Of a DNA stretch of 45,443 bases, positions 4,654 through 26,186 are shown in pieces (the stretch's first letter is position 1; the number at the start of each line of letters is the position of its first letter). Origin of the DNA: Planctomycetales bacterium (GTDB lineage: Bacteria > Planctomycetota > Planctomycetia > Isosphaerales > Isosphaeraceae). The notes under the pieces were generated by a model. That model saw nothing but the letters and a program-made list of their open reading frames with translations. It had not been told where the DNA came from and searched no databases. The DNA lies in NCBI GenBank assembly GCA_027449865.1, contig DAIDKV010000229.1, positions 1-45,443 of the forward strand, written 5' to 3'. Made by a program: the position numbers and the translations under genes.

Positions 4654-5092
4654 GATCCGAGCCTGGCTCGTCGCCTCCCTGGCGATGCTCGCCCCGTCGT
4701 GTGAACCGGGGCCGCGTCCCGAGGCGCCGAGCTTGCTGCCCGAGCCGGGTGCCGCTCGCCGGGCCGTCGAGAACGCCCTGGGAGAATGGAAGGCCTCGCC
4801 CGAAACGGATCTGTCGGCGCCCGGGCGATCGCTGATCTTTGTCGACCGTCAGCGAGCGCCCGGCCAGCGTCTTGTCGGGTACGTCGTCCTGGGTCAGTCG
4901 GAGGTGGACAACTGTCGGCGGTTTGTCGTCCGGCTCTCGCTCGAAGGGCCGGAGGAGACGGCACTCGCGGCCTATTACGTCTTCGGCGCGGAACCGATCT
5001 GGGTCTATCGCGCCGAGGATTTCGAGATGATGATGCACATGGATATGGCCCCCGACGATCCGCCCGCGCCGGCCGGTGCCCGAGGAGGTTGA
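4628..5092 (+). CDS. Small lipoprotein B of a paralogous pair
   Basis: Also exactly 154 aa. MRGNGGRGEIRAWLVASLAM leads to a lipobox LAPSC (Cys25). The mature domain shares the order helix (ARRAVENALGEWK), GQRLVGYVVLGQSE, RRFVVRLSLEGP and YYVFGAEPIWVYRAEDFEMM with lipoprotein A, which indicates tandem duplication followed by divergence. The C-terminus EMMMHMDMAPDDPP is Met/His-rich, which could bind soft metals such as Cu(I); that is inference. ATG 4628 lies inside the end of the upstream gene. The adaptor gene starts 3-6 bp after this stop, so all are probably one transcript. Confidence 0.83.
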   Translation: MRGNGGRGEIRAWLVASLAMLAPSCEPGPRPEAPSLLPEPGAARRAVENALGEWKASPETDLSAPGRSLIFVDRQRAPGQRLVGYVVLGQSEVDNCRRFVVRLSLEGPEETALAAYYVFGAEPIWVYRAEDFEMMMHMDMAPDDPPAPAGARGG

Positions 5093-5097
5093 ACGTG

Positions 5098-6627: not shown

Positions 6628-9600
6628 TTGATGCGGTCATCACGTTCTCGATCCGGCATCGGGGTGCGGTGATCGCGGCGGCGGTCGTGCTTGCCGTGCT
6701 CGGCGCCTGGGCGGTCGCGGAGACGCCAGTGGACGCGATCCCGGATCTCTCCGAGAACCAGGTGATCGTTCAGACGGACTGGAAGGGGCATGGCCCCCGT
6801 GAGATCGAGGATCAGGTGACCTACCCGCTGACGCTCGGCCTGCGGGGGATCGACGGTGTTCGCGTGGTCCGGTCGTCGAGCGAGGTCGGGTTCTCGACGA
6901 TCGACCTGATCTTCGAGGACGGGATTCCGATGGTCGAGGCGAGGCGGCGAGTGGCCGACCGGCTCGCCCGGGTGCGCGGCGAGATGCCGGCCGGAGCCGC
7001 GCCCGAATTGGGCCCCGACGCGGCGGCGACCGGCCAGATCTTCTGGTACACGGTCGAGGGCGGCGGACTCGACCTGGGGCGTCTTCGGGCCCTGCAAGAC
7101 TGGTACGTTCGCCCGCAGCTCGGTTCGGTCGCGGGTGTCGCGGAGGTTGCGAGCGTCGGCGGGCTTCCGATGGAGTACGAGGTCGCGCCCGATCCTGATC
7201 GGCTCCGGCTTTTCGGTGTGACGCCGGGCGAGATCACCGAGGCGATCGCCGCCTCGAACGCCGCGACGGGCGGTCACGTCGTCAACAAGGGGAAAGCCGA
7301 GTACGTGGTTCGGAGCGCCGGCTGGCTGGGCGCCTCACCCCGGCCCGGCGACGATTCGTTTGATCGCCAGCGGGCCGTCCGCGACCTGGAGGATGTCGTC
7401 CTGATCGGATCCGACGGCCACGCCCTCCGATTGGCCGATGTCGCCACCGTTTCGATCGTTCCCGGCTCCCGCCGCGGGGCGCTGGAGAAGGACGGCAGCG
7501 AGGCCGTCGGCGGCGTGGTTTTGATGACGAACGGCCAGAATCCGCTGGAGGTCACGCGGCGGATTCTGGCGAAGATCCGGGAGCTTCAGCCCGGCCTGCC
7601 GCACGACGTCCGGATCGTTCCCTTTTACGACCGGACTCCGCTGATCGAGGGCGCGATCGCGACCGTCACCGGGACGGTGATCGAGGCGATGATCTCGGCC
7701 TCGCTCTGCGTTCTGGCGGTGCTGCTGCACGTTCGCGCCTCGCTCGTGATCGCCGGGACGCTCCCCCTGGCGGCGCTCTCGTCGTTTTTGATCATGGCGG
7801 TCCTGCGACGGTCGGGGATGGTCGATATCCCGGCCAACGCGATGTCGATGGCGGGGATCGCGATCTCCATCGGGGTACTGGTCGATTCGTCTGTGGTGAT
7901 GGCTGAGAACGTGATGCACCGGCTGAGAGAACACTTCGGCACGGAGCCGGTTCGGGGCGACGTGACCGAGATCGTCCGATCCGCCTGCCTGGCGGTCGGC
8001 CGGCCGATTGTTTTCTCGGTCGCGATCATGGTGCTTTCGTTCCTGCCGGTGTTCGCCCTGGGCGGGATGGAAGGGAAGATGTTCCATCCGCTGGCCTTCA
8101 CCAAGACGTTCGCGCTGGTGACGGCCGCGGTCGTCGCGATCACGGTGGTCCCCGCGCTCTGCTCGATCGGCATTCGGGGCCGGCTCCGATCGGAGCGGGA
8201 GAATCCCCTGGTGCGCGGGGTGATCGAGGTCTATCGGCCGGTTCTCTCTTACCTGATGGACCGTCCGGCGGTGCTGGCGGTGATCCTGGGGCTAACCTCG
8301 CTGCTCGGCTTCGCGCCGCTGGGCAGCCGGCCGCTCTTCCTGGGCGTGCTCGGCCTGGCGATGGCGGCGGCGGGCGTTCTGGCGGTCAGCCGGTGGGGTG
8401 CTCTGATCGGGCCGGCGCTTCTGGTCGTCGCGGCCCTGTTCATCGAGCCGAACATCCAGCCCCTCGAACGAGAATTTCTGACGCCGCTCGACGAGGGGAT
8501 GATCATGGACATGCCGATCACCGTGCCGAGGGCCTCGGTGGCCGAGTCGGTCGACGACCTGAAGGCGCGCGACATGGTGCTCTGCCGGTTCCCCGAGGTC
8601 GACATGGTTGTGGGGAAGGCGGGCCGGGCCGAGACGGCAACCGACCCCGCGCCGATCGACATGATCGAGACGATGGTGAACCTTCGCCCCCGGGAATTCT
8701 GGCCGCGCCGGAAGCTCCGGCCGCTCGAGGCCAGGGCCCAGGTTGAGGCCATTCTTGAGGCGCTGATCGCCCGCGGCCTGGTCGCGCCGCCGCCGGATGC
8801 CGCGACTCGGGCGCGGATGGTCGATGAGGCGAGCGCGTCGGCCGTCGCGGAGTTCGACGCGGCCAGCCGAGAGTACGCCTATCACCGGAACCGCGAGATG
8901 ACCCGAGAGACTCGCGGCCTCTCGCCGACGTCGACGCACCCGACCGATCCCGAGGAAGCGAGCGTGGTTCCCCTTTGGCGGGGGCACGTCGCGAGGCTCG
9001 ACGTCGAGCTGCTCGCCCGGGCCGCGCCGATCTTCACCAGGCTGGCGATGGACCGCCTGCTCGACCGGGTCACGATCCTCGACCCGGACGTCTCGGCACA
9101 CCACGCGGCCTCGGTCCAGGCGCGCGCCGCGTCGGTTGAGGCGGCCCTCGCCGCGATGGAGCGATCGGCATCATCACCGGGCGGTCATCATCATCACGCG
9201 GGAGGAACGGCCTCGACACCGCAGGTTGAGCCGGAGCCGAAACTCGAGGCGATCCGTCGCGAGCACGCCGAACGATTCGGGCGCCGACTGATGCTCTGGC
9301 AGGTCGATCGTGACGAACTGACCGGCTTCGGCGGCGAGCTGGATGCGGCCGTGCCGATGCCAGGCTGGACGAACGTCTGGACGCGACCGATCCAGAACCG
9401 GGTCGACATGCTTGCCACGGGTGTCAACACGCCGATCGGAATCCGGGTTCTCGGCCAAAATCTGGAAGACGTCGTCCGAGCCTCGGAGGAGGTCGCCCGC
9501 GTGGTCAAGCGAGTGCGCGGGGCTGTCGACGTGGTGGCCGACCCGTTGCGCGGCAAGCCGTACGTTGAGATCCGGCTCGATCGCGAGCGGGCCGCGCGCC

Positions 9601-10622
9601 TGGGCGTCCGCGCGGGCGAGGTCCACGAACTGATCGAGATCGCGATGGCCGGAAAAACGGTGACATCGACCGTTGAGGGACGTGAGCGGCACCCGGTCGT
9701 GGTGCGCTTTCCGAGGGCGCTCCGCGCCGATGAGGAATCGATCGGCAACCTCATGGTCACCTCACACAGTCGATCCCTCGGGCCGAAGCCCACCCCATAC
9801 TCGACCGGCATCGATCCCCGTGCCCCCACGACGCGGGCGGTTCCGCTGGCCGAGGTCGCCGACATCCGCGTGGTTGAGGGCCCCGCCACGATCAAGGGGG
9901 AAGACGGACTGCTCCGAAACTACGTCCGCCTGGGCGTCCGCGATCGCGACGCCGCCGACCTGGTCGCCGAGGCCCGCGAGGTCGTTCGTCGAGAAACCCA
10001 ACTGCCGGAGGGCGTCTACCTGGAGTGGACCGGTCCGTTCGAACATGCACTTCGGGCGCGTCGGACGCTGATCGTCGTCGTGCCGGTCGTGATCGCGCTG
10101 ATCTTCACAATCCTCTACTGGACCTACCGCGATGTCGCCGACGCTCTGATGATGATGACGGCCGTCCCAGGCGCGATCGCCGGAGGGCTGTTCTTTCAGT
10201 GGTTCCTCGACCTGAAGCTGTCGACGACCGTCTGGGTCGGCTACATTGCCTGCTTCGGCATGGCCACATCGACCGGAATCATCATGCTGGTCTACCTGCG
10301 CGAGGCCATCGACCGAGCCGGCGGCCTGGAAACCATGAGCCTCGACAACCTGCGCCAGGCCGTCCTGAACGGAGCCGTCCACCGACTCCGGCCAAAACTG
10401 CTGACCGAGGGTACCGTGGTTCTTGGTCTGGCGCCGATGCTCTGGTCGGATGGCGTGGCCTCGGAGATCATTCGTCCGATGGCCGCTCCCGTACTGGGCG
10501 GCATCCTCGTCGCCGACGAGGTCATCGACCTGTTGCTCCCGATCCTCTTCTACTGGGTCAGACGCCGGCGCTGGGCGAGAATCCAGACGCTCGAAGGCGG
10601 GAAGACAAATAGTGTCATTTAA
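6624..10622 (+). CDS. CusA/CzcA-like heavy-metal RND efflux pump with large insertion
   Basis: 1332 aa against roughly 1040 for CusA. The N-terminus HRGAVIAAAVVLAVLGAWAV, then ETPVDAIPDLSENQVIVQT and EIEDQVTYPLT, is the family signature. TM4 has VLVDSSVVMAEN with the proton-relay Asp421. RIxxRxDMLATGxxxPIGI is present as NRVDMLATGVNTPIGIRVLG, including the Met used for metal binding in CusA. Residues about 690-916, between REFWPRRK and NVWTRP, replace a ~35-aa link in CusA with about 225 aa: Ala/Arg-rich helices and SPGGHHHHAGG (His855-858). It is coupled by ATGA to the adaptor. No outer-membrane channel gene is adjacent; the TolC-like gene at 19243 belongs to another locus. Confidence 0.93.
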   Translation: MIDAVITFSIRHRGAVIAAAVVLAVLGAWAVAETPVDAIPDLSENQVIVQTDWKGHGPREIEDQVTYPLTLGLRGIDGVRVVRSSSEVGFSTIDLIFEDGIPMVEARRRVADRLARVRGEMPAGAAPELGPDAAATGQIFWYTVEGGGLDLGRLRALQDWYVRPQLGSVAGVAEVASVGGLPMEYEVAPDPDRLRLFGVTPGEITEAIAASNAATGGHVVNKGKAEYVVRSAGWLGASPRPGDDSFDRQRAVRDLEDVVLIGSDGHALRLADVATVSIVPGSRRGALEKDGSEAVGGVVLMTNGQNPLEVTRRILAKIRELQPGLPHDVRIVPFYDRTPLIEGAIATVTGTVIEAMISASLCVLAVLLHVRASLVIAGTLPLAALSSFLIMAVLRRSGMVDIPANAMSMAGIAISIGVLVDSSVVMAENVMHRLREHFGTEPVRGDVTEIVRSACLAVGRPIVFSVAIMVLSFLPVFALGGMEGKMFHPLAFTKTFALVTAAVVAITVVPALCSIGIRGRLRSERENPLVRGVIEVYRPVLSYLMDRPAVLAVILGLTSLLGFAPLGSRPLFLGVLGLAMAAAGVLAVSRWGALIGPALLVVAALFIEPNIQPLEREFLTPLDEGMIMDMPITVPRASVAESVDDLKARDMVLCRFPEVDMVVGKAGRAETATDPAPIDMIETMVNLRPREFWPRRKLRPLEARAQVEAILEALIARGLVAPPPDAATRARMVDEASASAVAEFDAASREYAYHRNREMTRETRGLSPTSTHPTDPEEASVVPLWRGHVARLDVELLARAAPIFTRLAMDRLLDRVTILDPDVSAHHAASVQARAASVEAALAAMERSASSPGGHHHHAGGTASTPQVEPEPKLEAIRREHAERFGRRLMLWQVDRDELTGFGGELDAAVPMPGWTNVWTRPIQNRVDMLATGVNTPIGIRVLGQNLEDVVRASEEVARVVKRVRGAVDVVADPLRGKPYVEIRLDRERAARLGVRAGEVHELIEIAMAGKTVTSTVEGRERHPVVVRFPRALRADEESIGNLMVTSHSRSLGPKPTPYSTGIDPRAPTTRAVPLAEVADIRVVEGPATIKGEDGLLRNYVRLGVRDRDAADLVAEAREVVRRETQLPEGVYLEWTGPFEHALRARRTLIVVVPVVIALIFTILYWTYRDVADALMMMTAVPGAIAGGLFFQWFLDLKLSTTVWVGYIACFGMATSTGIIMLVYLREAIDRAGGLETMSLDNLRQAVLNGAVHRLRPKLLTEGTVVLGLAPMLWSDGVASEIIRPMAAPVLGGILVADEVIDLLLPILFYWVRRRRWARIQTLEGGKTNSVI

Positions 10623-12320: not shown

Positions 12321-13727
12321 TCATCGTGGACCGTCGGGATTCAGGCGGTCGGCGAGCCGCCGCAATTGCTCGACGTCGGCCTTCGTGATCTTCATGCCCT
12401 GGGTGTTCGTGCCCATGGCGTCGGGCCGGTCGAAGGTGTAGACGATCCGGACCTGGCCACCCTCGGATTTCGGACCGCCGACCTCGGCCAGGAGCCGGTC
12501 GACGAACTCGCGGACGCTCCCGATTCGCTTCTGCCCGACCATCCAGAAGACATCGCCCTCGGAGATTTGACCGATGGCCAGACGGTGGAAGTCGCGACCG
12601 GTATCGAGGATCAGGGCGCCCCTGTCATTGAAGAGGTCGTAGGCGTCCTTGAGCGCGGGCGTCACGTCGGCGAGCTTCATGCCGAGCACCTCGACCGCAC
12701 CCGGATCGGCCGGCAGGCCCATCGGCTTCAGCCGGAGCTGGAGACCTTCCCTGTCGCCCTTGAGGGCGATCGGCATCTCGCCGCGCTGGTGGATCGCCAT
12801 CGATCGGGCCCAGATCCGCGTGAGCCCCGGGCTCAGGCCCCGGACGACGAACCGGCCCTGTGCGTCGGAGAGGACGGTTTTGGAGTGGGAGTCGTCCTTG
12901 CGGGTGAACCGGACTGTCGCGCCGGCGACCGGCTTGCCGTCGGCGTCGACGACCGTCCCCGCGAGCTTGCAGCCGATCGGGAGGACAACCCGGAGCTTCT
13001 GCCTCGCCTCGGGCGCGAGCGAGTAGAGATCATCGATCCGGGTGTCGATGTGGTCGGGGTGCTGGAAGAAGATCCGTCCCTTCACCGTCCCGACGCCGAA
13101 GCCATCGGCCTTTTGAGGATAGTTGAACAGCTCGAAGGTGCCGTCCCCCCGGCTCCGGGTCACCTCGACCCCTCCCGAGGCCCGGTTGAAGAGCGCCCTG
13201 GCGGAGATTTCCACGCCTGGGATCGGTCTCCCCCGGTCGTCGACCACCACTCCGGTGACGAACGACGAAGGCTTGAGGGCCAGGTCGGCCGCCACGTCGG
13301 CGCCCGGGCGGAGCTTGACGCGGCGGGCATCGCCGCCCTGCATCAAGGTCCCGACCAGTCGGCGATATCCGGGCTTGCTCGCGTCGATCGAGACCGTCTC
13401 GGAACCGTTCAGCCCGGCGATCTCCAGATGATAGTCGCCGCCGGCGTCGGTCCGGGCCTCGCGAATCTCGCGAGGCTTTGGGAAGCCTTCACGGACGACC
13501 GATGTCACATCCGTCCCAAGGAATCGCATGTCGGTCGCCGGGATCGCGACCCGGACCCGAACATCCGCCAGCGGGGCGCCCGACTCGTCGACCACCCGGC
13601 CGCGGAGGATCGCGGGTTTCGCTCCCTGAACCGGCTCGTCGGACCTCGCAACCGCCCCAGCGAGCATCACGGCCGACATCACGACGAACCAGCCCGCCCG
13701 GTCCGACATCCCGCCTTGCCTGGACAT
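12321..13727 (-). CDS. Secreted carboxypeptidase-regulatory-domain protein with PDZ-like C-terminus
   Basis: 468 aa with signal peptide MSRQGGMSDRAGWFVVMSAV then MLAGAVARSDE. At least three carboxypeptidase regulatory-like (transthyretin-type beta-sandwich) repeats are visible: AILRGRVVDESGAPLADVRV, SFVTGVVVDDRGRPIPGVEI and KLAGTVVDADGKPVAGATVR. The last about 100 residues (GMKLADVTPALKDAYDLFN then GALILDTG...EGDVFWMVGQKRIGSVREFV) look like a PDZ domain. Such proteins are exported; the repeats are structural and no catalytic residues are seen. ATG 13727 is supported by GAGGAGGG 7 nt upstream. It is 201 bp upstream of the TlpA gene on the same strand, possibly cotranscribed. Confidence 0.85.
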   Translation of the reverse strand: MSRQGGMSDRAGWFVVMSAVMLAGAVARSDEPVQGAKPAILRGRVVDESGAPLADVRVRVAIPATDMRFLGTDVTSVVREGFPKPREIREARTDAGGDYHLEIAGLNGSETVSIDASKPGYRRLVGTLMQGGDARRVKLRPGADVAADLALKPSSFVTGVVVDDRGRPIPGVEISARALFNRASGGVEVTRSRGDGTFELFNYPQKADGFGVGTVKGRIFFQHPDHIDTRIDDLYSLAPEARQKLRVVLPIGCKLAGTVVDADGKPVAGATVRFTRKDDSHSKTVLSDAQGRFVVRGLSPGLTRIWARSMAIHQRGEMPIALKGDREGLQLRLKPMGLPADPGAVEVLGMKLADVTPALKDAYDLFNDRGALILDTGRDFHRLAIGQISEGDVFWMVGQKRIGSVREFVDRLLAEVGGPKSEGGQVRIVYTFDRPDAMGTNTQGMKITKADVEQLRRLADRLNPDGPR

Positions 13728-13920
13728 CGATTGGCCCTCCTCAATCCGACCCACACCCTACCGAATTCGCCCTACACTTGTCATCGACTCTCCATCGGCA
13801 CTGTAGCGACGTCGGATCCGGGCCGCAAGGGTTTTGCGTTCCGGGAAAAGAGACGGGCCAGGAGTGTCCCGTTCCTTTAGCGATTTCGCGGTCCTTCAAT
13901 GAGCAGGGCCGGAATTCGAT

Positions 13921-13957
13921 CACGAAAACGCGAAAGGGCGAAAGGACGAAAAAGACG
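13921..13957. repeat. Dispersed-repeat-like TCACGAAAACGCGAAAGGGC block
   Basis: The block reads TCACGAAAACGCGAAAGGGC then GAAAGGACGAAAAAGAC, four spaced CGAAA units. It resembles a CACGAAAA/GAAAGG repeat known to me from intergenic regions of many bacteria, and encodes ITKTRKGERTKK in one frame. Only one copy is present in this window. Confidence 0.45.
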
Positions 13958-14057
13958 ACTATCCGGCAGGGGTACGTCTCATCAGTTTTCCGCAATCGCT
14001 ACGATGCGACATGCGGCCTCCATCGACTGCCTTGCGACCGCGGAGACCACACGGTTA

Positions 14058-14074
14058 ATATTGAAAGCCAATAT
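14058..14074 (+). promoter_or_regulatory. Inverted repeat ATATTG-N5-CAATAT before padR
   Basis: ATATTG (14058-14063) and CAATAT (14069-14074) are perfect inverted arms with a 5-bp spacer, 15 bp before the proposed GTG start of padR. PadR regulators bind AT-rich palindromes and commonly repress their own gene, so this is a candidate operator. The usual ATGT-N8-ACAT form is not matched. Confidence 0.45.
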
Positions 14075-14089
14075 CGGAGTGCCAAAGTC

Positions 14090-14446
14090 GTGAGCGAACT
14101 GCTCGTGAAGATGTTCTTCGGCGGGTTCGTCCGGATGCACGTGCTCTATCACGCCGTGAAGGAGCCCGTTTTTGGGGTCGAGATGATGGAGGAACTCGGA
14201 CGACACGGTTATGAGGTCGGACCGGGAACGCTTTATCCGATCCTGCACCAGCTCGAAGAGGCCGGCTATCTCTCGGCTCATGCCGAGATCGTCGATGGGA
14301 AGCGCAGGAAGTACTATCGAGCGACGCCCGAGGGCGAAAAAGCGCTCGAGGAGACCAAGGCCCGGCTCCGCGAACTGGTCAAGGAAGTGCTGCACGACGA
14401 CCCTCCGACCCCCTCGATCCGACGACCCGAGGGGAACCGCGATTGA
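14090..14446 (+). CDS. PadR-family transcriptional regulator
   Basis: 118 aa starting at GTG 14090 (GGAG about 10 nt upstream): MSELLVKMFFGGFVRMHVLY. The winged-helix core is clear: PVFGVEMMEELGRHGYEVGP, GTLYPILHQLEEAGYLSA and GKRRKYYRATPEGEKALEE, the latter two being the PadR recognition-helix/wing signature. A C-terminal helix RLRELVKEVL would dimerise. PadR proteins usually repress efflux genes and release DNA on ligand binding. The RND-adaptor fusion starts 130 bp downstream on the same strand, so it is the likely target. Weak start evidence is the main doubt; ATG 14111 is an alternative. Confidence 0.88.
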   Translation: MSELLVKMFFGGFVRMHVLYHAVKEPVFGVEMMEELGRHGYEVGPGTLYPILHQLEEAGYLSAHAEIVDGKRRKYYRATPEGEKALEETKARLRELVKEVLHDDPPTPSIRRPEGNRD

Positions 14447-14576: not shown

Positions 14577-17500
14577 ATGAACCCGATCGTCTTCGCGATG
14601 CGGCGGCCGATGACCGTGATGGTCGCCGTGATCGGCGTCGCCCTTTTCGGTGCGCTGGCCGTCGCCCGGATGTCGATCGATATCTTTCCCAGCCTGAATC
14701 TGCCGGTCGTCTACGTTTGCCAGCCCTATGGCGGGATGGATCCCGCGCAGATGGAAGGGCTTCTCACTAATTATTACGAATATCATTTTCTCTACATCAA
14801 CGGGATTCATCACGTCGAGAGCAGGAACGTTCAGGGGATGGCGATCATGAAGCTGACGTTCCACCCCGGGACGAACATGGCGCAGGCGATGGCGGAAACC
14901 ATCGGCTACGTCACCCGGGCGCGGGCCTTCATGCCGCCGAACACGGTTTCGCCGTTCGTCACCCGGTTCGATACCGGGAGCGTCCCCGTCGGGTATCTCG
15001 TCCTGTCGAGTGAGACCCGGACCATCGGCGAGATCCAGGACCAGGCGCTCTTCAAGGTCCGGCCGATGTTCGCCAGCCTGCCCGGGGTCTCGGCGCCGCC
15101 GCCGTTCGGCGGAAACCAGCGGACGGTCGTCGTCCGGCTCGATCCCGACCGGCTTCGCGCCTACCAGATGTCGCCCGACGAGGTCATCTCGGCGCTCGAG
15201 GCCGGCAACGCGATCTCGCCCTCGGGGAATGTCCGAATCGGCAAGATGATGCCGATCGTTCCGATCAATGCGCTCGTCAAACAGGCGCGCGACCTGGAGA
15301 CGATCCCGATCCGACCCGGCCAGGATCCGACCGTCTACCTCCGCGACGTCGCGACCGTTCACGACGCCTCCGACATCCCCACCGGATCGGCCCTCGTGAA
15401 CGGCCGGCGGGCTGTTTATATTCTCGTAACCAAGCGCGCGGATGCCTCGACGCTCTCCGTCGTCCAGACCGTCAAGGAAGCCCTTCCCGGGATGCAGGCC
15501 GTCTTGCCCGACGACATCAAGGTCAGCTTCGAGTTCGATCAGTCGCCGACCGTAACCCGGGCGATACGAGGGGTCGCGACCGAGGGACTCATGGGCGCGG
15601 TACTCACCGGGTTGATGGTTTTGATCTTCCTCCGCGACTGGCGGAGCGTGATCGTGGTCGTCCTGAATATCCCGTTCGCCCTCTGCGGCGCGATTGTCGC
15701 GCTCTGGCTGACCGGTCAGACGATCAACATCATGACCCTCGGCGGCCTCGCCCTGGCGATCGGTATTCTGGTCGACGAATCGACGGTTGAGGTGGAGAAC
15801 ATCCATCACCAGCTCGAATCGACGCCCTCGGTGGCCCGCGCGGTCCGGCGCGGGAATCATCAGACGGCCGTCCCTCGCCTGCTGGCGATGCTCTGCGTGC
15901 TGGCCGTTTTTCTGCCCTCGTTCTTCATGCAGGGCTCGGCGCGGGCGCTTTTTGTCCCGCTTTCGCTGGCGGTCGGGTTCTCGATGGTCGCCTCGTACCT
16001 GCTCTCCAGCACGTTCGTCCCGGTGCTCTCCACCTGGCTCCTGCGACACCATCATCCGAGCGCTCACACAGGTCGATCGGTCTTCGACCGGATGCGCGAC
16101 GCCTTCGGCCGCGCGGTGGGGATCTCGGTAAAATGGCGATGGCTGATCGTCCCGGCCTACCTGGCCGGGAGCCTCGCCGTCATCGTCCTGGTCGGTCGAA
16201 CGCTGGGGCTGGAGATCTTTCCGAAAGTCGACGCCCAGCGGTTCCAGCTTCGGATGCGGGCTCCGACCGGAACCCGCTACGAGGAGACCGAGCGACTGGC
16301 CATATCGGCGCTTGACACGATCCAGGAGATCGTCGGTCGAGAGAATGTTTCGATCTCGATCGGATACGTCGGGCTGATCCCGTCGAGCTACCCGATCAAT
16401 GCGATTTACCAGTGGACCGGCGGTCCCGAGGAGGCGATCCTTCGCGTGGCGCTCCGGAGCAGGTCGGGGATCGATATCGGAGGGTTGCAGGAGCGATTGA
16501 GGCGCGAGCTGGGCGAGCGGATGCCGGATGTCCGGCTCTCGTTCGAGCCGGCGGACATCGTCAGCGAGGTGATGAGCTTCGGATCACCGACGCCGATCGA
16601 GGTCGCCGTGACGGGCTCGAACCTCGACGACGACCGGGCCCACGCGGAGAAAATCCGCGCCGAGCTTCAGAAGATCGGATCGCTGCGCGACCTGCATTAC
16701 GGCCAATCGCTGGATTATCCGACGATCCGAATCGATGTGGATCGCGAGCGCGCGGGGCTCTCGGGCGTGACGGCCGAGGACGTGGCGCGGTCGGTCGTCG
16801 CGGCGACGTCGTCGAGCCGGTTCGTCGTCCCGAACTACTGGCCCGACCCGAAGACCGGAATCGGCTACCAGGTGCAGGTCGAGATTCCCTATCAGATCAT
16901 GGACTCGATCGAGCGCGTCGAGACGGTTCCCATCCAGAAGCCCGGCCTCGATCGCCAGCTCTTGCTACGCGACGTCGCGGAGGTTCGCCCAGGGATCATG
17001 CCTGGTGAATATGATCGGTATAACATGAAAAGGACCGTCAGCCTGATGGCGAACATCGGCGGCGAGGACCTGGGGAGGGTCGCGGCGCGGGTCGAGCGGG
17101 CGATTCGGGCGGCCGGAGAACCGCCGAGGGGAGTGACGGTTGCGATCCGGGGACAGGTCCAGCCGATGCGGGAGATCCTCTCGGGGCTCGGGGTCGGGCT
17201 CGTCATGTCGATCGTGGTGATTGTGCTTCTGCTGACGGCCAGCTTCCAGTCGGTCCGGCTCGCCCTGATCGTGATCTCCACGGCGCCTGCGGTGATCGCG
17301 GGGGTGGTCCTGATGCTGTTTCTGACGGGGACGACGATCAATCTTCAATCGTTCATGGGTTCCATCATGGCGATCGGGGTGGCGGTGGCGAACGCGATTT
17401 TGCTGGTGACGTTCGCCGAGGGGCATCGCCGCGAGCGGGTGTCGAGTGCGGGCGAGGCGGCCGTGGAGGGGGCACGCGGACGGCTTCGACCGATTTTGAT

Positions 17501-19094
17501 GACGAGCCTCGCGATGATCGCGGGGATGATCCCGATGGCGGTCGGGCTCGGCGAGGGCGGCGAGCAGATCGCCCCGCTGGGCCGGGCGGTGATCGGCGGG
17601 CTGGTCGCCGCGACGATCGCCACGCTTTTTGTGCTGCCGACCGTCTTCGTGGCCGTTCAGGCGGGCGCCTCGCGCGAGTCGACATCGATCGATCCCGATG
17701 ATCCGGAGAGCCCGCACCACGATGGCGAGGCTGTGAACGGATGGACTTCGAAGCGAGAGGCGGTTTCGATCGGCGCGGGGCGGGTGCTGGGCGTTGCCCT
17801 GCTCGCTGTTGGACCGATGATCGCGGGCTGCGAGCCAGGCGGCGAGGATCGGCCGCCCTCCTCCGCGACGGCGGCGATCCGTCAGGTTGAGGTCGTTCCG
17901 CCTGCCCGGCAGACGATCCGGAGGAGCGTCGGCGAGCCAGGACAGCTTGAGGGGTTCGAGACGACCGCGATTCATGCGAAGATTTCCGGATATGTGAACC
18001 GATGGACGGCCAATATCGGCGATCTCGTGAAGAAGGGGCAGCTTCTGGCGGAGCTTTCGGTGCCAGAGATGGATGCCGATCTCCGGCAAAAGCGGGCAGC
18101 GGTCGCGCGGGCGGAGGCCGATCGGCGCCAGGCGGAGGCGGCTGTCGAGGTGGCCGAGGCCGACGTCAAGGCGGCCGATGCGAAGCTCGCCGAGGAACGC
18201 GCGGGGATCGGTCGAGCGTCGGCCGACTTCGATCGGTGGGAGTCGGAGCATCGCCGCGTCACGCAGCTTTTCGAGGCCAAGGCTCAAACAGGGAGCCTGC
18301 TCGACGAGACCCGGAACAAGCTCCGCTCGGCCGAGGCGGCCGTCGAGGAGTCTCAGGCGCAGGTCCGGTCGGCCGAGGCGGCCGTGATCCAGGCCCGCGC
18401 GGGGCTCGATCGCGCCCGGTCCGACCTGGGCTCGTCCGCCGCCGCCGTCGACGTCGCCCGAGAGGAGGCCGGACGTGCCTCGGCCATGCTCGGATACGCC
18501 CGGATCGTCGCACCCTTTGATGGGATCGTCACCGAACGGCACATCAATACCGGCGATCTGACGCAGCCGGGCGCCGATCGTCGGCCGCTGTTTGTCGTGG
18601 CGCGGTCGGACCTGCTCACGATTCGGGTGGATGTCCCCGAGGTCTTCGCGCACGACGTTCAGCCCGGTGATCCGGCGACGATCCGAATCCAGGCGATTCG
18701 CGGTCAGACGATCCGGGCGAAGGTCACGCGGACCTCGTGGGCGATCGACCCGAAGGCGCGAACGCTTCGCGTGGAGATCGATGTACCGAATCCCGACGGG
18801 CGGCTTCAGCCGGGGCTCTACGCGTACGCCACGGTTCTCGTCGAGGAGCGGGCCGACGTGCTTTGCGTGCCGGTCTCGGCCGTGGTGAGCGAGTCGGGCG
18901 AGGATGCTTGCCTGGTCGTCGTCGAGGGGAAGGCGCGCCGTCGACCCGTGCAAACGGGGCTCAGCGACGGAACTTACACCGAGATTCTTGGCGGGCTCTC
19001 GGCCTCGGACCAGGTGGTGAAGGCCGGCGCCGGCTCGCTGACCGAGGGTCAGCCCGTGCAGGTGAATGGACCGCCACCAGGCGCGAAACCCTGA
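14577..19094 (+). CDS. RND efflux permease fused in frame to an HlyD-type adaptor
   Basis: 1505 aa in one frame. Residues 1-about 1045 are an AcrB/HAE1-like permease: [38 protein letters not shown]4 [14 protein letters not shown] with Asp400-Glu401, and the second-half TM9-12 block [20 protein letters not shown]. Residues about 1060-1086 ([16 protein letters not shown], Cys1085) look like a lipoprotein signal and lipobox. Residues 1090-1505 are a complete membrane-fusion protein: lipoyl half [20 protein letters not shown], Ala/Glu coiled-coil hairpin (about 1165-1308), second half [18 protein letters not shown], and beta-barrel/MP domains. An extra membrane span would put the adaptor in the periplasm, consistent with its function. 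A GTG at 17733 could also start a separate adaptor. PadR lies upstream and a TolC channel downstream, making a full tripartite set. Confidence 0.9.
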
Positions 19095-19242
19095 CGATTG
19101 CGAGGGTCGCGCGACCTTCTCGACCCTCGCGGACGGACTCGGCGGCACGACCGCTGATGTCGGCCTCCGATATCGGCCGATCCTGGAAAGCACCGGCGCC
19201 GATCGGTCGCGGGTTCGGATGGGTGTCCAGGAGGGACGATCC

Positions 19243-20814
19243 GTGAGACTCTCGATGAGGATTTGCCTGGGATCGGTGTGGCTCGCGGCCATCTTGCCCT
19301 TGATGGTACGCGGGCAGGAGCATCCGACGACGCCGACGGCGGTCCGGCTCGGAACGCCGGCGCCGGCGGGCCGGATGCCGGCGATCCCGGCGCTGCCCGA
19401 GTCGGCCCGATCGCCGGAGATCCCCTCGACCGCCGAGGGGCCGGGCTTCCCGATCCTTGATGGCCAGGAAGTGCAGCCGATCGACCTTGCCAATGTGCTC
19501 CGGCTGGCCGGGGCGCGCGACCTGGATATCGCGACGGCGCGGCAGCAGGTTCTGCACGCCGTCGGCGGCCTCGACCAGGCGCGCGGGCTCTGGTTGCCGA
19601 GCCTCTTCACCGGGCCGACGTATTATCGGCTCGACGGGCAGGTGCAGGAGATCAACGGGAAGGTGATCACGGTGAGCCGAGGGTCGCTCTCGTTGAGTTC
19701 AACGGCGACACTCGCCAACAGCTTTCCCGCGGCGCCGCCGGGTTCGGGCTTCCCAGCGCTGAACAGCCTGAGCGGAACGCTCCGGATCTCCGACGCGATC
19801 TTCGCGGTGAAGGTCGCGAAGCGGACGATCGCCGCGAACCGGGCGGGAGTGGCCGCCGCGACGAACGACGCGATCCTCGGCGCGGCGGAGGGATACTTCG
19901 ACCTTCAGCAGGCCGCTGGAATCCTTCAGATCGCTCGGGAAGCCGCCGGAAATGCGGAGTCTCTCGCCGAGATCACCGGGAGCTTCGTGAAATCGGGCGC
20001 TGGGCTTGAAGCCGATCATCGCCGGATTCTGGCGGAATTGCGAAGCAGGAAACGATCGATCCGGATGGCGGTCGGCCAACTGGAGGTCGCCTCGGCCAAC
20101 CTGGTCCGTCCGCTCCTGATCGATCCGCACGTGGTGGTGGCACCGGCCGAGCCCGCGGAGACCGTCTATCGACCGGTCGCCGACGACTGCACACTCGACG
20201 ATCTGATCACGCAGGCATGGCGAGGCCGGCCCGAGCTTTTGCAAGCGCGAGAACTGGTCGAGGCGTCGATTTATCGGCTCAGGCAGGCGAGATTGCGGCC
20301 GTTTGTCCCGTCGCTGGCGGTCTCGTATGCGGGCGGTGGATTTGGGGGAGGGATGGGGTCGTACTTTGGGAACTTCAGCAGTCGGGGCGACCTTGCCGCC
20401 AGTTTATTCTGGGACCTCCGCGGTCTTGGGCTGATCGACCGAGGCGTGATCCGGCAGGCACACGCGGGCCGGCACACGGCCGACATCGATTTCTTGCGGA
20501 TTCAGGCCCAGGTGGCCGCGGACGTTGTCGCCGCGTACAAGGCGCGCCGGGCCGCGGCCGACTCGATGGAGGATGCACGCGAGTCGGTCGCCGAGGCGGT
20601 GGAGTCGCTTCATCTGAACATGACAAACATCCGGGGCGGCGGCGGACTTCCCGGCGCCACCCGGCCGATCGAGGTTCTTCAGCCGATCCAGGCGCTGGCG
20701 TTCTCGCGGACCGATTACCTCACCGCGGTTCTGGCGTACAACCGGGCGCAGTTCCGGCTCCATCGGGCGATCGGCCGGGCACCGATGATGCCGGCGGGCG
20801 AGCCGGCGAGGTAA
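19243..20814 (+). CDS. TolC-family outer-membrane efflux channel
   Basis: 523 aa. Signal peptide MRLSMRICLGSVWLAAILPL then MVRGQE. Two repeats of outer-membrane-efflux-protein type follow: first LANVLRLAGARDLDIATARQ to GYFDLQQAAGILQIAREAAG, second ITQAWRGRPELLQARELVEA to VVAAYKARRAAADSMEDARE. The end TDYLTAVLAYNRAQFRLHRA is the conserved OEP C-terminus. A Pro/Ala-rich linker (about 25-75) precedes the barrel. GTG 19243 is chosen because GGAGGG lies 7 nt upstream; ATG 19255 is the alternative. It is 148 bp after the permease-adaptor fusion on the same strand and provides the exit duct of that pump. Confidence 0.9.
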   Translation: MRLSMRICLGSVWLAAILPLMVRGQEHPTTPTAVRLGTPAPAGRMPAIPALPESARSPEIPSTAEGPGFPILDGQEVQPIDLANVLRLAGARDLDIATARQQVLHAVGGLDQARGLWLPSLFTGPTYYRLDGQVQEINGKVITVSRGSLSLSSTATLANSFPAAPPGSGFPALNSLSGTLRISDAIFAVKVAKRTIAANRAGVAAATNDAILGAAEGYFDLQQAAGILQIAREAAGNAESLAEITGSFVKSGAGLEADHRRILAELRSRKRSIRMAVGQLEVASANLVRPLLIDPHVVVAPAEPAETVYRPVADDCTLDDLITQAWRGRPELLQARELVEASIYRLRQARLRPFVPSLAVSYAGGGFGGGMGSYFGNFSSRGDLAASLFWDLRGLGLIDRGVIRQAHAGRHTADIDFLRIQAQVAADVVAAYKARRAAADSMEDARESVAEAVESLHLNMTNIRGGGGLPGATRPIEVLQPIQALAFSRTDYLTAVLAYNRAQFRLHRAIGRAPMMPAGEPAR

Positions 20815-20823
20815 GGCGAACCG

Positions 20824-22359
20824 TCAGGATCGCGTCGAGGGATGGCCGAGCCCACCCGGCTCGCCGATGTGGGCGAGCAGGCGCTCGAGGTCGTCGAGGT
20901 CGAGCGGTTTGACAAGGTGTTCGTTGAAACCGGCCGCTCGGGTGCGTCGGCGGTCCTCGTCGCGGCCGTAGCCGGTCATCGCGATCAGGACGACATCCGC
21001 CGTGCCGGGTCGGCCACGGAACTCCCGGGCGACCTGGTAACCGTCCATGCCGGGCAGGCCGATGTCGAGCAGGATGACGTTGGGACGGAAGACGGCGGCC
21101 TCTTCCAGGGCGTCGGGCCCCGAATGCGCGACCCGGCATTCGTGGCCCCAGAGCTTGATGATCAGGCTCAGACTGTCGGCCGAGGGAATATTGTCGTCGA
21201 CCACCAGCACCCTGCGCGAGGCGCCCGGGGTCGGCAGTGGAGGAGGCGGCGGCGGAACGTCGGCCTTGATGGGCTCCTTCGAGATCGGGAGCCGGACGAC
21301 GAACTCGCTCCCTCGTCCCGGTCCCTCACTGCGCGCGACGAGGGAGCCGTGGTGCATCTGGACGAGGTTGCGCGCCAGGGTCAGTCCGATACCGAGGCCC
21401 CCCTGCGAGCGGGCCAGGGAATGGTCAACCTGGGTAAACAGGCCGAAGATTGCCTCCTGCATCTCGCGATCGATGCCGATGCCGTCGTCCTTGACCCGGA
21501 TCGCCACGTCGTCGCCATCCACCTCGGCGGCGACGTCAATGCGCCCGCCCTTGTCGGTGTACTTGACGGCGTTGTTCAAAAGGTTATTCATCACCTGTTC
21601 GAGCCGGACGGGGTCGGCCCAGATGCGAACGGGCTCATCCGGGAGCGTGACGTGCAGCTCGTGCGACTTGGCGGCGAGGTGGGTCCGAACGGTCTCGATC
21701 GACCGCTGAATCAGCGCCGTGACGCTCACCGGTTCGAGCCGAAGCTGGATCTTGCCGCGCGTGATTCGAGAGACGTCGAGCAGGTCGTCGACCAGTCGGG
21801 CCATGCAGCGGACCTGTTGCTCGACGACGTCGCGCATCCGCTCGCGGAGGACCTGATCGTCGCCGCGAAGCCGCATGATGTGGACGGCGTTGAGGATCGG
21901 CGCGAGCGGGTTGCGCAGCTCGTGCGAGAGCATCGCCAGGAACTCGTCCTTCCGCTGATCGGCGACGGCCAGCTCGGCGATCTTCTGGCGAAGCTCCTCC
22001 TCCAGAATCTTGCGGTCGCTGATGTCGCGGAGCGAGGCGAGGAGCGCGGGCTCACCCTCCCACTCGGTCTCGACCACCCGCATCTCCACGACGACGACCT
22101 TACCGTCGCGGAACGGAAGGTCGATCTCGGTGGTCTCACCGGCGAGGATCGGGATGCCGAAGAACTGTCCGACCAGTTCGGCGGCGGGGCGATTGAGCAG
22201 CGAGGTCGCCGCCGGGTTGGCGAAGCGGATGGTTCCGTCGGGACGGACCACCAGCATGCCGTCGGCATTGCTCTCGATGAGCTTTCGGAAGCGAGCCTCG
22301 CTCGCCCCGGGCGGCGGAGATGGAGGATTCGCGTGACTCGGCGAAGGTTCGGGCGTCAT
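20824..22359 (-). CDS. Hybrid sensor histidine kinase (PAS-HisKA-HATPase-REC)
   Basis: 511 aa, no membrane segment, so cytoplasmic. PAS domain about 20-115 (IESNADGMLVVRPDGTIRFA), HisKA with the phospho-acceptor His146 in FLAMLSHELRNPLAP, N box VMNNLLNNAVKYTDKGG, G boxes DDGIGI and GGLGIGLTLARNLVQMHHG, a Pro-rich linker (366-377) and a C-terminal receiver with Asp432 in VILLDIGLPGMDGYQVAREF and Lys in HLVKPLDL. It follows kaiB by 85 bp on the same strand, separated by a perfect stem-loop. Kinases with a KaiB-like partner occur in circadian output (SasA carries a KaiB-like fold), so KaiB may modulate this kinase; that is inference. Its output partner is not in the window. Confidence 0.93.
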   Translation of the reverse strand: MTPEPSPSHANPPSPPPGASEARFRKLIESNADGMLVVRPDGTIRFANPAATSLLNRPAAELVGQFFGIPILAGETTEIDLPFRDGKVVVVEMRVVETEWEGEPALLASLRDISDRKILEEELRQKIAELAVADQRKDEFLAMLSHELRNPLAPILNAVHIMRLRGDDQVLRERMRDVVEQQVRCMARLVDDLLDVSRITRGKIQLRLEPVSVTALIQRSIETVRTHLAAKSHELHVTLPDEPVRIWADPVRLEQVMNNLLNNAVKYTDKGGRIDVAAEVDGDDVAIRVKDDGIGIDREMQEAIFGLFTQVDHSLARSQGGLGIGLTLARNLVQMHHGSLVARSEGPGRGSEFVVRLPISKEPIKADVPPPPPPLPTPGASRRVLVVDDNIPSADSLSLIIKLWGHECRVAHSGPDALEEAAVFRPNVILLDIGLPGMDGYQVAREFRGRPGTADVVLIAMTGYGRDEDRRRTRAAGFNEHLVKPLDLDDLERLLAHIGEPGGLGHPSTRS

Positions 22360-22444: not shown

Positions 22445-22723
22445 CTAAACCTGCGAAGACCAGAGGTCCAGGCCAAGAAGAACCCGCTCGGTGTCCGAAA
22501 GATCGCCGATGATCCGGCGGATCGGCGGCGGCAATTCCTTCACCACCGTGGGGGTCGCCAGGATCTTCTCGTCCTCGGCAAGCTGGGGCCGCTCCAGCAC
22601 ATCGATCACAACCAGCTCGTACTGATCGTCGAGTTCCGTGTCGCAAATCCGCCGCAGGTTCTCGATGGCCCGAAGCGATCGCGGGGTCTGGCCGGTGATG
22701 TAAAGCTTAATGACATACTTCAT
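22445..22723 (-). CDS. kaiB: KaiB-family protein (circadian clock component homologue)
   Basis: 92 aa: [20 protein letters not shown] opens the thioredoxin-like half. [20 protein letters not shown] then [15 protein letters not shown] is nearly the cyanobacterial KaiB C-terminal half, the part that refolds in the fold-switched, KaiC-binding state. Key elements retained are the ATPT cis-Pro region, the [10 protein letters not shown] block and the terminal GLDL. ATG 22723 fits the family start; a longer upstream frame is unconserved. No kaiC or kaiA lies in the window. Neighbours are a hybrid kinase downstream (85 bp) and a vWA/FHA/Hsp70 cluster upstream (167 bp). It may work with a kaiC elsewhere or in a KaiC-independent role. 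Confidence 0.93.
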
Positions 22724-22816
22724 CGTGGTTGGATTCCGATACCGGGCCCGTCGGCGTCCTCGCGACTGGCACGCCGACCTCTCCCCCCCGTTCCCACCAC
22801 CCGAACGGTCGAACGC

Positions 22817-22846
22817 GGCAGCATCGGGCGTCGTGCCCGATCTGCC
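22817..22846 (-). terminator. Strong stem-loop between the vWA gene and kaiB
   Basis: GGCAGCATCGGGC (22817-22829) pairs with GCCCGATCTGCC (22835-22846): 12 bp with one bulged C and a 5-nt loop. On the minus strand it lies 44 bp after the vWA gene stop and 93 bp before the kaiB start. There is no clear T-run. It is a likely end or attenuation point for the Hsp70/FHA/vWA transcript. Confidence 0.5.
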
Positions 22847-22890
22847 AGCAAAAATCGCGCCGGGATCTGGGGACATTGCCTGACGGGTTC

Positions 22891-23934
22891 TCATCCTGAC
22901 AGAGTAACCTTCTCGGGCGTGGATCCGCTACACGGCGAGGGAGAGGCCGGCGAGCGGGACCTCCGGCGGGGCAACAGGCCCAGCGCGGCCAGCGTGGCCG
23001 CGAGGGCCAGGAAGATCGGCGACCATCCGCCCACGGGAACGACCATTCCCGGGATGAAAACGGCCGTCTTTCCCGCCGAGACGCCCTGGCGATAAGCGAT
23101 CTGGATGGGTCGGAGGGTTCCATCCGGAACGGGACGGTCGGTCCGGTAGGCGAGGAGGTAGGTCGAGCCGATTCGCTCGGCGATTTGCTCGTAAATGGCA
23201 GTCAGCTCGTCGGCCCGACGCGCGGGGAAGTACCGGGCGCGGGTCGCCTCGGCGAGTTGCCGAAGGTCGTCGGCGCGGATCCGACGCTCGTTGCCCAGGC
23301 CCAGGGTATAGACCGGCAGGCCGAGGCGCCGAGAGGTCGCGATCAGGGAATCGAGGTTGGCGTCCTGACTATCCGTGTCCTCGCCGTCGGTGAGAGCCAG
23401 GACGGCCCTTCGGCCAGGTTCGTCCTGTAACATCCGCAAGGCGCGGTCAACGGCGTCGTAAAACCGGGTCGCGCCGCGGGCGCGAAGGGCGTGAACCTGG
23501 TCTTCCAGGCTTTCGAAGTCGGTGGTGAACGGCGAGAGCTCCTCCACCTCGGAACCAAACGCGATCACCGCGACCCGAGAGCCAGCCGGGAGCCGCGACA
23601 GGAACGCCGAGACGGCGCGCTTCAGGCCGCCGATCCTGTCCTCGTTCATCATGCTCCCGCTCCGGTCGAGGACCAGGACGAGCGTCGTCGGGATTTGCTC
23701 GGTGGTGACGGGGGCCTGGAAGTCGTCGATGGCGACCGGTCGTCCTTCTTCCTCGACCTGGAACTCCTCGCGCCGGGCGTCCCGGACGTGGGATCCATCG
23801 GGTCGGACCAGCTCGAACTGGATCGCGATCCGGGGGAAATCCTGCTCGCGAACGCCCGAGACGCGAACTTCCGGCGAGGCCGGGGAATCCGGGGCCGCGG
23901 CCAGGGCGAGGATCGCCAGGGTGGTTGCGATCAT
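22891..23934 (-). CDS. Membrane-anchored von Willebrand factor A domain protein
   Basis: 347 aa. A short N-terminal hydrophobic signal ([14 protein letters not shown]) is followed by a beta region ([20 protein letters not shown]) and a vWA domain at about 83-260. Its MIDAS is complete: D90-R-S92-G-S94 in [11 protein letters not shown], Thr156 in [10 protein letters not shown] and Asp183 in [10 protein letters not shown], so it should bind a divalent metal and a ligand. One membrane helix follows (about 303-321, [17 protein letters not shown]), then an Arg/Ser-rich tail. The vWA domain is on the exported side. ATG 23934 overlaps the upstream FHA gene stop as ATGA. It resembles the VWFA-related/Ca-activated chloride channel type common in bacteria; its partner is probably a cluster protein. 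Confidence 0.88.
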
Positions 23935-25283
23935 TGGGTCGTCTCCTCGCGGAATGGCAGGATCAGGCACGAGAGACCGGCGGCCGAGGCGCCGAGGATC
24001 GCCCAGGCGAGCATCGAGGCGAACGTCGAGGACGTCCACGATCCGAGGGTAAGGTCGACCGATCGGGTCGCGGCGTGGAGGACCGCCGAGGCCATCACGC
24101 CGGCCATCGCCGAGGCGACTCCCGCGGCGGCCGTGTCGATGAGGTTTTGGGCCCGCCGCCATCCCGCGACCAGGCCCACCACCGAGGCCATCGCCGCGAC
24201 GATCGCCGCGAGAGCCGGCAGTCCTGGCCCCGAAACCCAAACCAGTAATGGGATCGCCAGGCCGATCGCGAGGGCCAATCCCACCCGCGCCAGGGGCCGC
24301 GTCCGGGCGATCGTCTGGGGCCATTCCCGCCCGGACGGGACGGATTCGGGAAGGTCCGGCGGAGACGTCGCCGCGCGGAACCGAATCGGGATGCGACGCG
24401 TTCCGCCGCTGGATTCCAGGACGATTTCCACCATCCCAGGCACGGACTCGGGCCGATCGATCTCGACCGCCAGATCGGATCGGTCGATCGTGAGGATCGG
24501 TCGGCCGTCGAGCCGGATCCACCCGATCCCGGCCGGCTCGACCCGGGCCGAGGTCCGGAGCCGCCGATAGCCGACGTTGGTGATCCGGAGGAGGTGCCGG
24601 GTCGTCCCGGCCGCCGGGGGGACTTCGAGGCTCTCGGGATGGACGTCCAGCTCGGGGGCGCTCGATTGCGAGGCGGGAATCCGCCCGAGCCACTCGTCGA
24701 GGCGATCGTCGGGGTCTCCGATCTGACGGGACGGGAGCAGGTCGGGACGGCCGATCCGTCGGAGGTACGATTCCAGCCTGCCGGACGTCAACTCGTCGCG
24801 GAGGTTGTCCCATCGGTTCGCGGCGAGGGTGAGGACGTCGTCCCACGTCCGGCCGACGACGGAGCCGGCGATCGTGAACGGCTCGGAGAGGCGTCCCGTC
24901 GTGGCCGGGATCGGCGGCGGGGCCGAGGCCGGCGCCAGCACCCGGAGCAAAACGCCGCCGACCTGGATCTCGTCGCCCGGCGCGATCGCGAGCGACTGGC
25001 CGGCGAGGAGGCGGCGTCGGTTGACGAACGTCCCGCCGGGAGAGTCGAGATCGCGGATCGCAAGACCGGAATGCCTTGATTCGATCATTGCCTGCCGTCC
25101 GGCCATCCGGCGTGGGGAGGCGCCTTCCTGATCGCGAAGGTCGATCCCCGGGGCGCCGTCGATCGCGTTTCCGAGGACGATCGCGGGGCCTTCGAGGTCG
25201 AGCCGCTTCCCGACCTCGCGACCGCGAACGATTTCCAGCGACCATCCGGCCGGTCGTCCGTTCGTCTCGGGTGTCGAGGGCAT
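23931..25283 (-). CDS. Degenerate FHA-domain membrane protein
   Basis: 450 aa. Residues about 15-117 have an FHA-like layout (SLEIVRGREVGKRLDLEGPA, IRDLDSPGGTFVNRRRLLAG, GDEIQVGGVLLRVL), but the canonical Arg, Ser-x-x-His and Asn-Gly are altered (GN, RMAGRQA, VNRR), so phosphothreonine binding may be lost. The middle (about 205-315, LDVHPESLEVPPAAGTTRHL then IRFRAA) resembles an Ig-like beta domain. The C-terminus has four or more membrane segments (about 335-445: ARVGLALAIGLAIPLLVWVS, ALAAIVAAMASVVGLVAGW, and others). The gene lies 12 bp after the other FHA gene and overlaps the vWA gene by 4 nt. It probably scaffolds the cluster at the inner membrane (inference). Confidence 0.82.
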   Translation of the reverse strand: MPSTPETNGRPAGWSLEIVRGREVGKRLDLEGPAIVLGNAIDGAPGIDLRDQEGASPRRMAGRQAMIESRHSGLAIRDLDSPGGTFVNRRRLLAGQSLAIAPGDEIQVGGVLLRVLAPASAPPPIPATTGRLSEPFTIAGSVVGRTWDDVLTLAANRWDNLRDELTSGRLESYLRRIGRPDLLPSRQIGDPDDRLDEWLGRIPASQSSAPELDVHPESLEVPPAAGTTRHLLRITNVGYRRLRTSARVEPAGIGWIRLDGRPILTIDRSDLAVEIDRPESVPGMVEIVLESSGGTRRIPIRFRAATSPPDLPESVPSGREWPQTIARTRPLARVGLALAIGLAIPLLVWVSGPGLPALAAIVAAMASVVGLVAGWRRAQNLIDTAAAGVASAMAGVMASAVLHAATRSVDLTLGSWTSSTFASMLAWAILGASAAGLSCLILPFREETTQ

Positions 25284-25295
25284 GGATTCCGCCTT

Positions 25296-26186
25296 TCAAC
25301 GATGTCGGAAGACGAGCCAGGTCCGGCCCAGCTCGATCCGGTCGCCGTCGCGCAGGGGATGGTCGCCCGCGATCACAGCTCCGTTGACTCGTGTCGTCCC
25401 GGCGCCGGCGAGGTCGCGAAGGAGATAGCCTTGGGCGGTCGCCGCGATCTCGGCGTGTCGGCGAGCCACGGAGGGATCGCCGAAGATCCCGACCTCGGCC
25501 CGCTCGTCGAGACCGAGACGCGAGACCGAAGGCGAGAGGAGGTAGATGCGCCCTTCTTGCCGTCCGCTCTGGATCTGGACCCAGGCGCGGCGGAGGGCCT
25601 GCTCGACGAGAGCCAGGGAGGTTCCCAGCCCGGCGCCCAGGATCACCATCCCCGGCGCCTGGACGAGGTCGGGTCGGTTTCCGGTGGTGAGGCGGAGCCA
25701 CTCGAAGACGAGTCCGCCGAGAAATCCTCCCAGACCGCCGCCGATCAGGCCGAAAACGAGGCGGTCGCGCGATCGATCGGCGATCCCCTGCCCCAGCCCG
25801 ATTCCGAGCCCGAGCACGGCCCACGACGCCGCCCGTCCGATCAAACCGCCCTGCACGATTCCGATCACCAGCTCACCCGCGACCAGCCCAAGAGCGCCGC
25901 CGACCGCCGCGGCCGGAGTACCCGTCGCGACCGATCGGCTAAGCTTGATCCAGGCCCGATCGCGGAACGGACCATACGCGTTGAGGAAGAACCCCAGCGA
26001 TCCGCCGATGAGCAGCCCGGCCATCGCGTCACGGATGTAAACCGATTCGGCCCGGACCCCCTCGACGTAGAGATAGAGCCCAAAGAGCCCGCCGAGTGCG
26101 CCGGCGAGGCCGAGGTCGTAGGCGTGTCGCAGATTTGCCCGCGTCGCGCGGGCGGGCGACGGGATCGGCGGCGGGAGGTACGTCAT
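25296..26186 (-). CDS. Polytopic membrane protein with C-terminal FHA domain
   Basis: 296 aa. Several Gly-rich hydrophobic segments span about 25-205 ([74 protein letters not shown]). A cytoplasmic FHA domain follows (about 215-296): [63 protein letters not shown]. Here the Ser-x-x-x-His and Asn-Gly of phosphothreonine binding are kept. Its ATG overlaps the Hsp70-vWA stop as ATGA, so the two are translationally coupled. An FHA reader implies a Ser/Thr kinase; none is in the window. The fold of the Gly-rich membrane part was not recognised. Confidence 0.85.

Follow-up and report, generated by a model that had tools for sequence, protein, structure and literature searches.

A single open reading frame of 1505 residues in the planctomycete DNA analysed here (a stretch of 45,443 nucleotides, hereafter the window) encodes a 12-span AcrB-type RND permease and then a complete periplasmic adaptor, without a stop between them. 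From the junction sequence and its conservation among relatives, we consider this frame to be probably a polyprotein, whose product would be a normal permease and a lipoprotein adaptor after a cut by the lipoprotein signal peptidase LspA, rather than a covalent pump. We give an even chance to the broader proposal that a polyprotein of this kind has evolved repeatedly in bacteria, with the 12-span RND permease and its adaptor synthesised 1:1 and then separated by LspA at an internal lipobox, so that both arise at one spot of the membrane.

One reading frame with two complete proteins

The frame and its two halves are as follows.

14577..19094, + strand: fused RND permease and periplasmic adaptor ORF, 1505 aa; frame kept in genome G001 at 94% identity
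14589..17657, + strand: RND permease domain (ACR_tran, residues 5-1027); Pfam 607.8 bits, 12 hydropathy spans, PDB relatives AcrB, CusA and MdtB
17829..19091, + strand: periplasmic adaptor (membrane fusion protein), predicted mature residues 1085-1505; HlyD_D23, RND_mfp, AlphaFold model, PDB matches

Translation of 14577-19094 on the + strand gives 1505 aa with no internal stop, in agreement with the earlier sequence-only reading of this DNA, which had described a complete 12-TM permease and a complete HlyD-type adaptor in one frame. Both halves are borne out. The permease matches PF00873 (RND AcrB/AcrD/AcrF permease) over its full length, at 607.8 bits against a cut-off of 28, with ACR_tran covering residues 5-1027, and the hydropathy profile of the 1505-aa chain contains the 12 permease spans together with an extra, thirteenth peak at 1065-1083. 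Its scores lie below the curated NCBIfam cut-offs for the named RND subfamilies (HAE-1, HME): 516 versus 1250 for RND_permease_2, 318 versus 940 for TIGR00915 and 386 versus 701 for TIGR00914. By inspection of 14577-17657, TM4 reads LVDE and TM10 reads AVANAILL. AcrB has LVDD in TM4 and SAKNAILI in TM10 at what we take to be the corresponding proton-relay positions, and the relay lysine of AcrB thus seems, from this alignment by eye, to be replaced by alanine in TM10 of the window permease.

In the adaptor half, HlyD_D23 (Pfam) covers residues 1128-1416 and the 208 bits for the NCBIfam model TIGR01730 RND_mfp exceed its cut-off of 94.9. The AlphaFold model of this half (mean pLDDT 87) comprises a lipoyl domain, two hairpin helices of ~70 residues, a beta-barrel and a membrane-proximal domain, and its top PDB matches are AcrA, a MexC-like adaptor, MacA and MexA, with Z of 19-22 overall and about 20-22 for AcrA, MacA and MexA. 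The adaptor half is therefore predicted to fold as a complete adaptor.

Could the stop have been removed by an assembly or sequencing error? The window comes from a 278-contig draft, and the remaining fused sequences except L011 are likewise drafts. Nevertheless, we regard an artefact as very improbable. At locus L009 of G001, an independent genome from the window's genus, the 1505-residue frame recurs with equal junction length at 94% identity, and this locus matches contig DAHZZC010000248.1 (Planctomycetales MAG, locus L068). Between the window and G001, dN/dS is 0.077 for the permease and 0.067 for the adaptor at dS ~0.45, which indicates strong selection on both halves as an unbroken frame in two lineages, and one of the independent fused homologues lies on a finished chromosome. 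Sequencing error was rejected on these grounds, as was an assembly error of the window's contig. Among RND permease matches elsewhere in the window's genome, none falls in an open frame as long as 1505 aa.

A predicted lipoprotein signal peptide at the junction

The junction contains the following features.

17658..17783, + strand: permease cytoplasmic C-terminal tail as linker, residues 1028-1069; from junction comparisons, with a DPDDPES motif common to split relatives
17733..17735, + strand: GTG (V1053) 5' of the signal-peptide core; a weak candidate for an internal start
17784..17828, + strand: hydrophobic core of the putative internal lipoprotein signal peptide, residues 1070-1084; 15 residues, from hydropathy
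17829..17831, + strand: lipobox Cys codon, C1085; predicted lipidation site, with the predicted LspA cut immediately before it

An additional hydrophobic segment at the junction had been reported, and it is present as the peak at 1065-1083, but its description as a plain span does not stand. The chain reads M-I-A-G-C(1085) at the join, followed by EPGGED, in keeping with the lipobox rule (PMC9360617), and the 1505-aa protein has no PS00013-type match other than this one. Permeases of 93 loci yielded 19 such matches in 96,654 residues, or about 1 in 5,000, and a chance signal-like segment was rejected on this background. Most split relatives encode the same kind of lipoprotein adaptor as a separate gene directly downstream of the permease. 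Given the lipobox at the join and these separate lipoprotein adaptors, the sequence comparisons identify the segment as the adaptor's own predicted lipoprotein signal peptide, left in place by the fusion, and not as a new span. The junction has the hydrophobic core and the lipobox ending in Cys that define a bacterial lipoprotein; it departs from that definition in position, since the signal lies inside the primary product, with its Cys at position 1085 of 1505, and not at the N-terminus. Among the fusions, the hydrophobic cores are 12-17 residues long, with a charged or polar residue one or two positions past the Cys. Cores of this length resemble signal peptides more than stable spans. The window genome encodes lspA and two lgt genes.

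Recurrence of the fusion among relatives

Comparison of fused with split versions in related genomes, which the sequence-only reading had proposed as a check, was carried out on 45 genomes of the family and other relatives, with 80 named loci. It returned ten distinct fused loci: L001 (the window), L009/L068, L010/L080, L040, L043/L072, L011/L041, L028/L089, L029/L090, L098 and L104. Beyond the window's genus, fusions occur in other Isosphaeraceae and in one Phycisphaerales MAG, and the majority of relatives are split. Relatives with names (Aquisphaera, Paludisphaera, Tautonia) assign the family to Isosphaeraceae. L011 lies on a finished 7.5-Mb chromosome from the genus that holds Paludisphaera soli (G018, G032). 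Long stop-free frames are frequent at 66% GC, and in 24 of 80 split relatives the permease and adaptor genes share a reading frame, so the loss of a single stop can fuse them.

On a 94-row permease tree the fused state changes 7 times; branches with strong support force at least 5 of these changes, and such counts cannot separate gains from losses. A single ancient fusion for the whole set was rejected on this basis. The five fusions of the window's clade do not group in a careful family tree, which does not fully resolve gains and losses inside that clade; forcing them into one clade costs 27 log-likelihood units (p-AU 0.04), and a single fusion there is accordingly disfavoured. The fusion recurs, with some 5-7 state changes on the tree.

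When the junction was used as a query over a phylum-wide sample of 392 genomes, unbroken fusions were returned only from the window and from G017. One-piece tblastn matches in plasmids of Caballeronia (H10) and Burkholderia (H11) proved to be in-frame split pairs and were discarded. In these plasmids (L173:1483-5958 and L174:1423-5910), adjacent permease and adaptor genes are in frame with one stop and ~24-27 nt between them, a single mutation from fusion. The fused frame at L104:5001-9809 contains a Pro/Gly-rich linker stretch that resembles a translated intergenic repeat (PPLTPPDHGWEKEGPPFVRG...), and the L104 MAG could carry an error.

The predicted cleavage site, not a start codon, is retained

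An internal signal-peptidase site is retained in 10 of the 10 distinct fused loci. Seven of them (L001, L009, L010, L011, L040, L072, L104) have a lipobox Cys, in each case the sole such match in the protein, and the other three have ends of the signal peptidase I (AxA) type: AIA|QDS in L028, LWA|QDS in L029 and ARA|QA in L098. The lipoboxes of L040 and L072 (ATLGC, ALCGC) are less typical, and L010 has a net negative charge ahead of the core. Diverged pairs illustrate what is kept. L072 and L040 share 29% identity over the junction and retain GC-D, and L028 and L029 share 28% and retain AQDS, with permeases 84-87% identical across the compared pairs. Some fusions are possibly recent, in which case retention of the site would partly reflect shared ancestry, and Gly-Cys would be kept by chance with odds of ~0.1 per diverged pair. 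These points, like the less typical lipoboxes and the charge in L010, weigh against the polyprotein reading.

Were it enough for the segment to span the membrane, nothing would hold the Cys in place, and were the adaptor made from an internal start, the start codon would be kept; neither pattern is observed. Internal initiation, at GTG 17733 in the window, would make a free lipoprotein adaptor beside the fused product. The GTG at V1053 is common to the window and L009, and L098 retains an in-frame ATG with a full n-region. Against this, L010 and L011 contain no ATG, GTG or TTG from the end of TM12 to the lipobox, which means that the fused chain itself must carry the signal, and L072 offers only TTG codons, at the start of the core or inside it, yet the site is kept in all. 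In the window, a GAGG lies just 2 nt from the GTG, and the 'NG' motif around 17733 looks less like the start of an adaptor than like the permease tail of split relatives, so this codon is probably not the ancestral start of the adaptor. We judge internal initiation improbable.

The sequence-only reading had favoured a permanently covalent pump, in which the junction is a lasting thirteenth TM span and each permease protomer carries a tethered adaptor. In its favour, both sides of the junction are under purifying selection within one frame, and a segment that persisted as an N-in/C-out span 13 would give the right topology; the argument that an odd extra segment places the adaptor in the periplasm is right. 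Adaptors of several split relatives (for example Bradyrhizobium loci; L124, L143, L146) have no visible cleavage site, so a membrane tether is conceivable. A covalent pump leaves unexplained, however, both the short cores and the fact that every one of the ten fused loci keeps either a lipobox Cys or an AxA-type site, and it is at odds with the two adaptors per protomer of solved pumps (PMC4446572). The three missing adaptors of a 3:6:3 assembly would have to come from another gene, or the pump would have to work at 3:3. With Lgt and LspA also encoded in the genome, permanent covalence is not the best reading, and we consider it rather unlikely, with perhaps one chance in a handful. Taken as a whole, the sequence-only reading is partly supported.

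A proposed route from polyprotein to tripartite pump

For the polyprotein that we favour, the 12 spans of the permease half would insert so that its C-terminus lies in the cytoplasm, and the signal peptide retained after TM12 would act as an internal N-in/C-out signal that moves the adaptor into the periplasm. Lgt would then add a diacylglyceryl group to Cys1085 and LspA would cut just ahead of this residue. The products would be a permease that ends in a short hydrophobic tail and a free adaptor anchored by lipid in the inner membrane. Together with the TolC-type protein encoded next to them, they would form a tripartite RND pump of the normal kind. In L028 and L029 (g6) and in L098, where the site is of the signal peptidase I type, LepB would be the cutter. 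Insertion, lipidation, cleavage and assembly, like the transported substrate, are what we infer for this locus, and the permease-first gene order may be what renders such a fusion topologically harmless.

Individual elements of this route have parallels. Adaptors that lack an N-terminal helix are anchored by lipidation of the Cys after signal peptidase II (PMC4446572), and in E. coli a reporter was released from a polytopic protein by means of a signal peptidase I site positioned behind an internal TM segment (PMC5449189). In the literature searched, LspA was not described as cutting an internal signal in any 12-span protein. Neither a natural fusion of RND permease and adaptor nor an internal-lipobox polyprotein was described in the open-access literature, which is incomplete and misses most subscription journals, and searches of it on CzcA-TolC fusions, FbcH and internal signal peptides brought up no direct precedent.

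The dominant pump architecture is 3:6:3, with two adaptors per protomer in solved pumps (PMC4446572), and the sequence-only reading had accordingly raised the difficulty that a trimeric permease would carry only three adaptors per complex. This is not the best reading either, as cleavage would release an ordinary lipoprotein adaptor; synthesis would be 1:1 but assembly free, and the paradox of three versus six need not arise, though an uncleaved fraction may persist.

Comparison with known systems

The cytochrome b/c1 precursor FbcH of Bradyrhizobium joins a polytopic inner-membrane protein to a periplasmic partner via an internal signal peptide and is cut after translocation. Like that polyprotein, the ten distinct fused loci all retain an internal signal-peptidase site after fusion; FbcH relies on signal peptidase I and belongs to a respiratory enzyme, whereas the window locus has a predicted site for lipoprotein signal peptidase and belongs to an efflux pump. 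The locus resembles AcrAB-TolC and MexAB-OprM in having an AcrB-type permease, an adaptor with lipoyl, hairpin, barrel and membrane-proximal domains, and an adjoining TolC-type partner. It differs from them in that permease and adaptor form one ORF, in the order permease, adaptor, outer-membrane factor, and in a permease that falls below the NCBIfam cut-offs of named subfamilies. Also close to it are RND-adaptor operons in which the two genes are split, from Isosphaeraceae and other planctomycetes (L012-L014, Aquisphaera insulae L078, Paludisphaera soli L086, Tautonia sociabilis L084), whose permeases are up to 83% identical and are directly followed by a homologous lipoprotein adaptor; unlike the window, they have a stop and a new start between the two genes. 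Fused adaptor dimers and TriA-TriB are likewise natural rearrangements of adaptor genes in tripartite pumps, but there adaptor is joined or paired with adaptor, and in the window permease with adaptor (PMC4446572).

If the polyprotein reading holds, the locus would be a natural case of strict 1:1 synthesis of permease and adaptor, set against the 3:6:3 of solved pumps, and it would predict an unusual LspA substrate. With the stop lost repeatedly and the cleavage site always kept, evolution has in effect tested which part of the junction matters. The locus also warns that membrane proteins annotated as fusions may be precursors.

Gene neighbourhood

Two further features flank the fused ORF.

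14141..14353, + strand: PadR-type transcriptional regulator domain; Pfam PadR 65.6 bits, inside ORF 13478-14446, just upstream of the fused ORF
19066..20814, + strand: outer-membrane efflux protein (TolC/OEP type), the third component; Pfam OEP 61.7 bits

With PadR upstream and TolC/OEP downstream, the locus looks like a complete tripartite efflux operon; the true start of the TolC/OEP protein probably lies inside ORF 19066..20814. An OEP gene is also found 3' of the fused ORF in L068 and L168. In L068, the closest relative, a 1537-aa RND permease frame lies upstream of the PadR gene (L068:1632-6242), with ~200 residues preceding its ACR_tran domain.

The window contains a second, unfused RND pair at 4786-10622, in which an HlyD/HMBD adaptor is followed by a CusA-like permease of 1332 aa with long insertions, including the His-rich stretch GGHHHHAGG. 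Downstream of the efflux locus, a KaiB-domain protein (22448-22894, - strand) lies beside a PAS / histidine kinase / receiver hybrid kinase (20827-22359, - strand). At 26186-28279 (- strand), an HSP70-like ATPase domain is fused to a von Willebrand A domain, and a further VWA frame lies nearby at 22894-25824.
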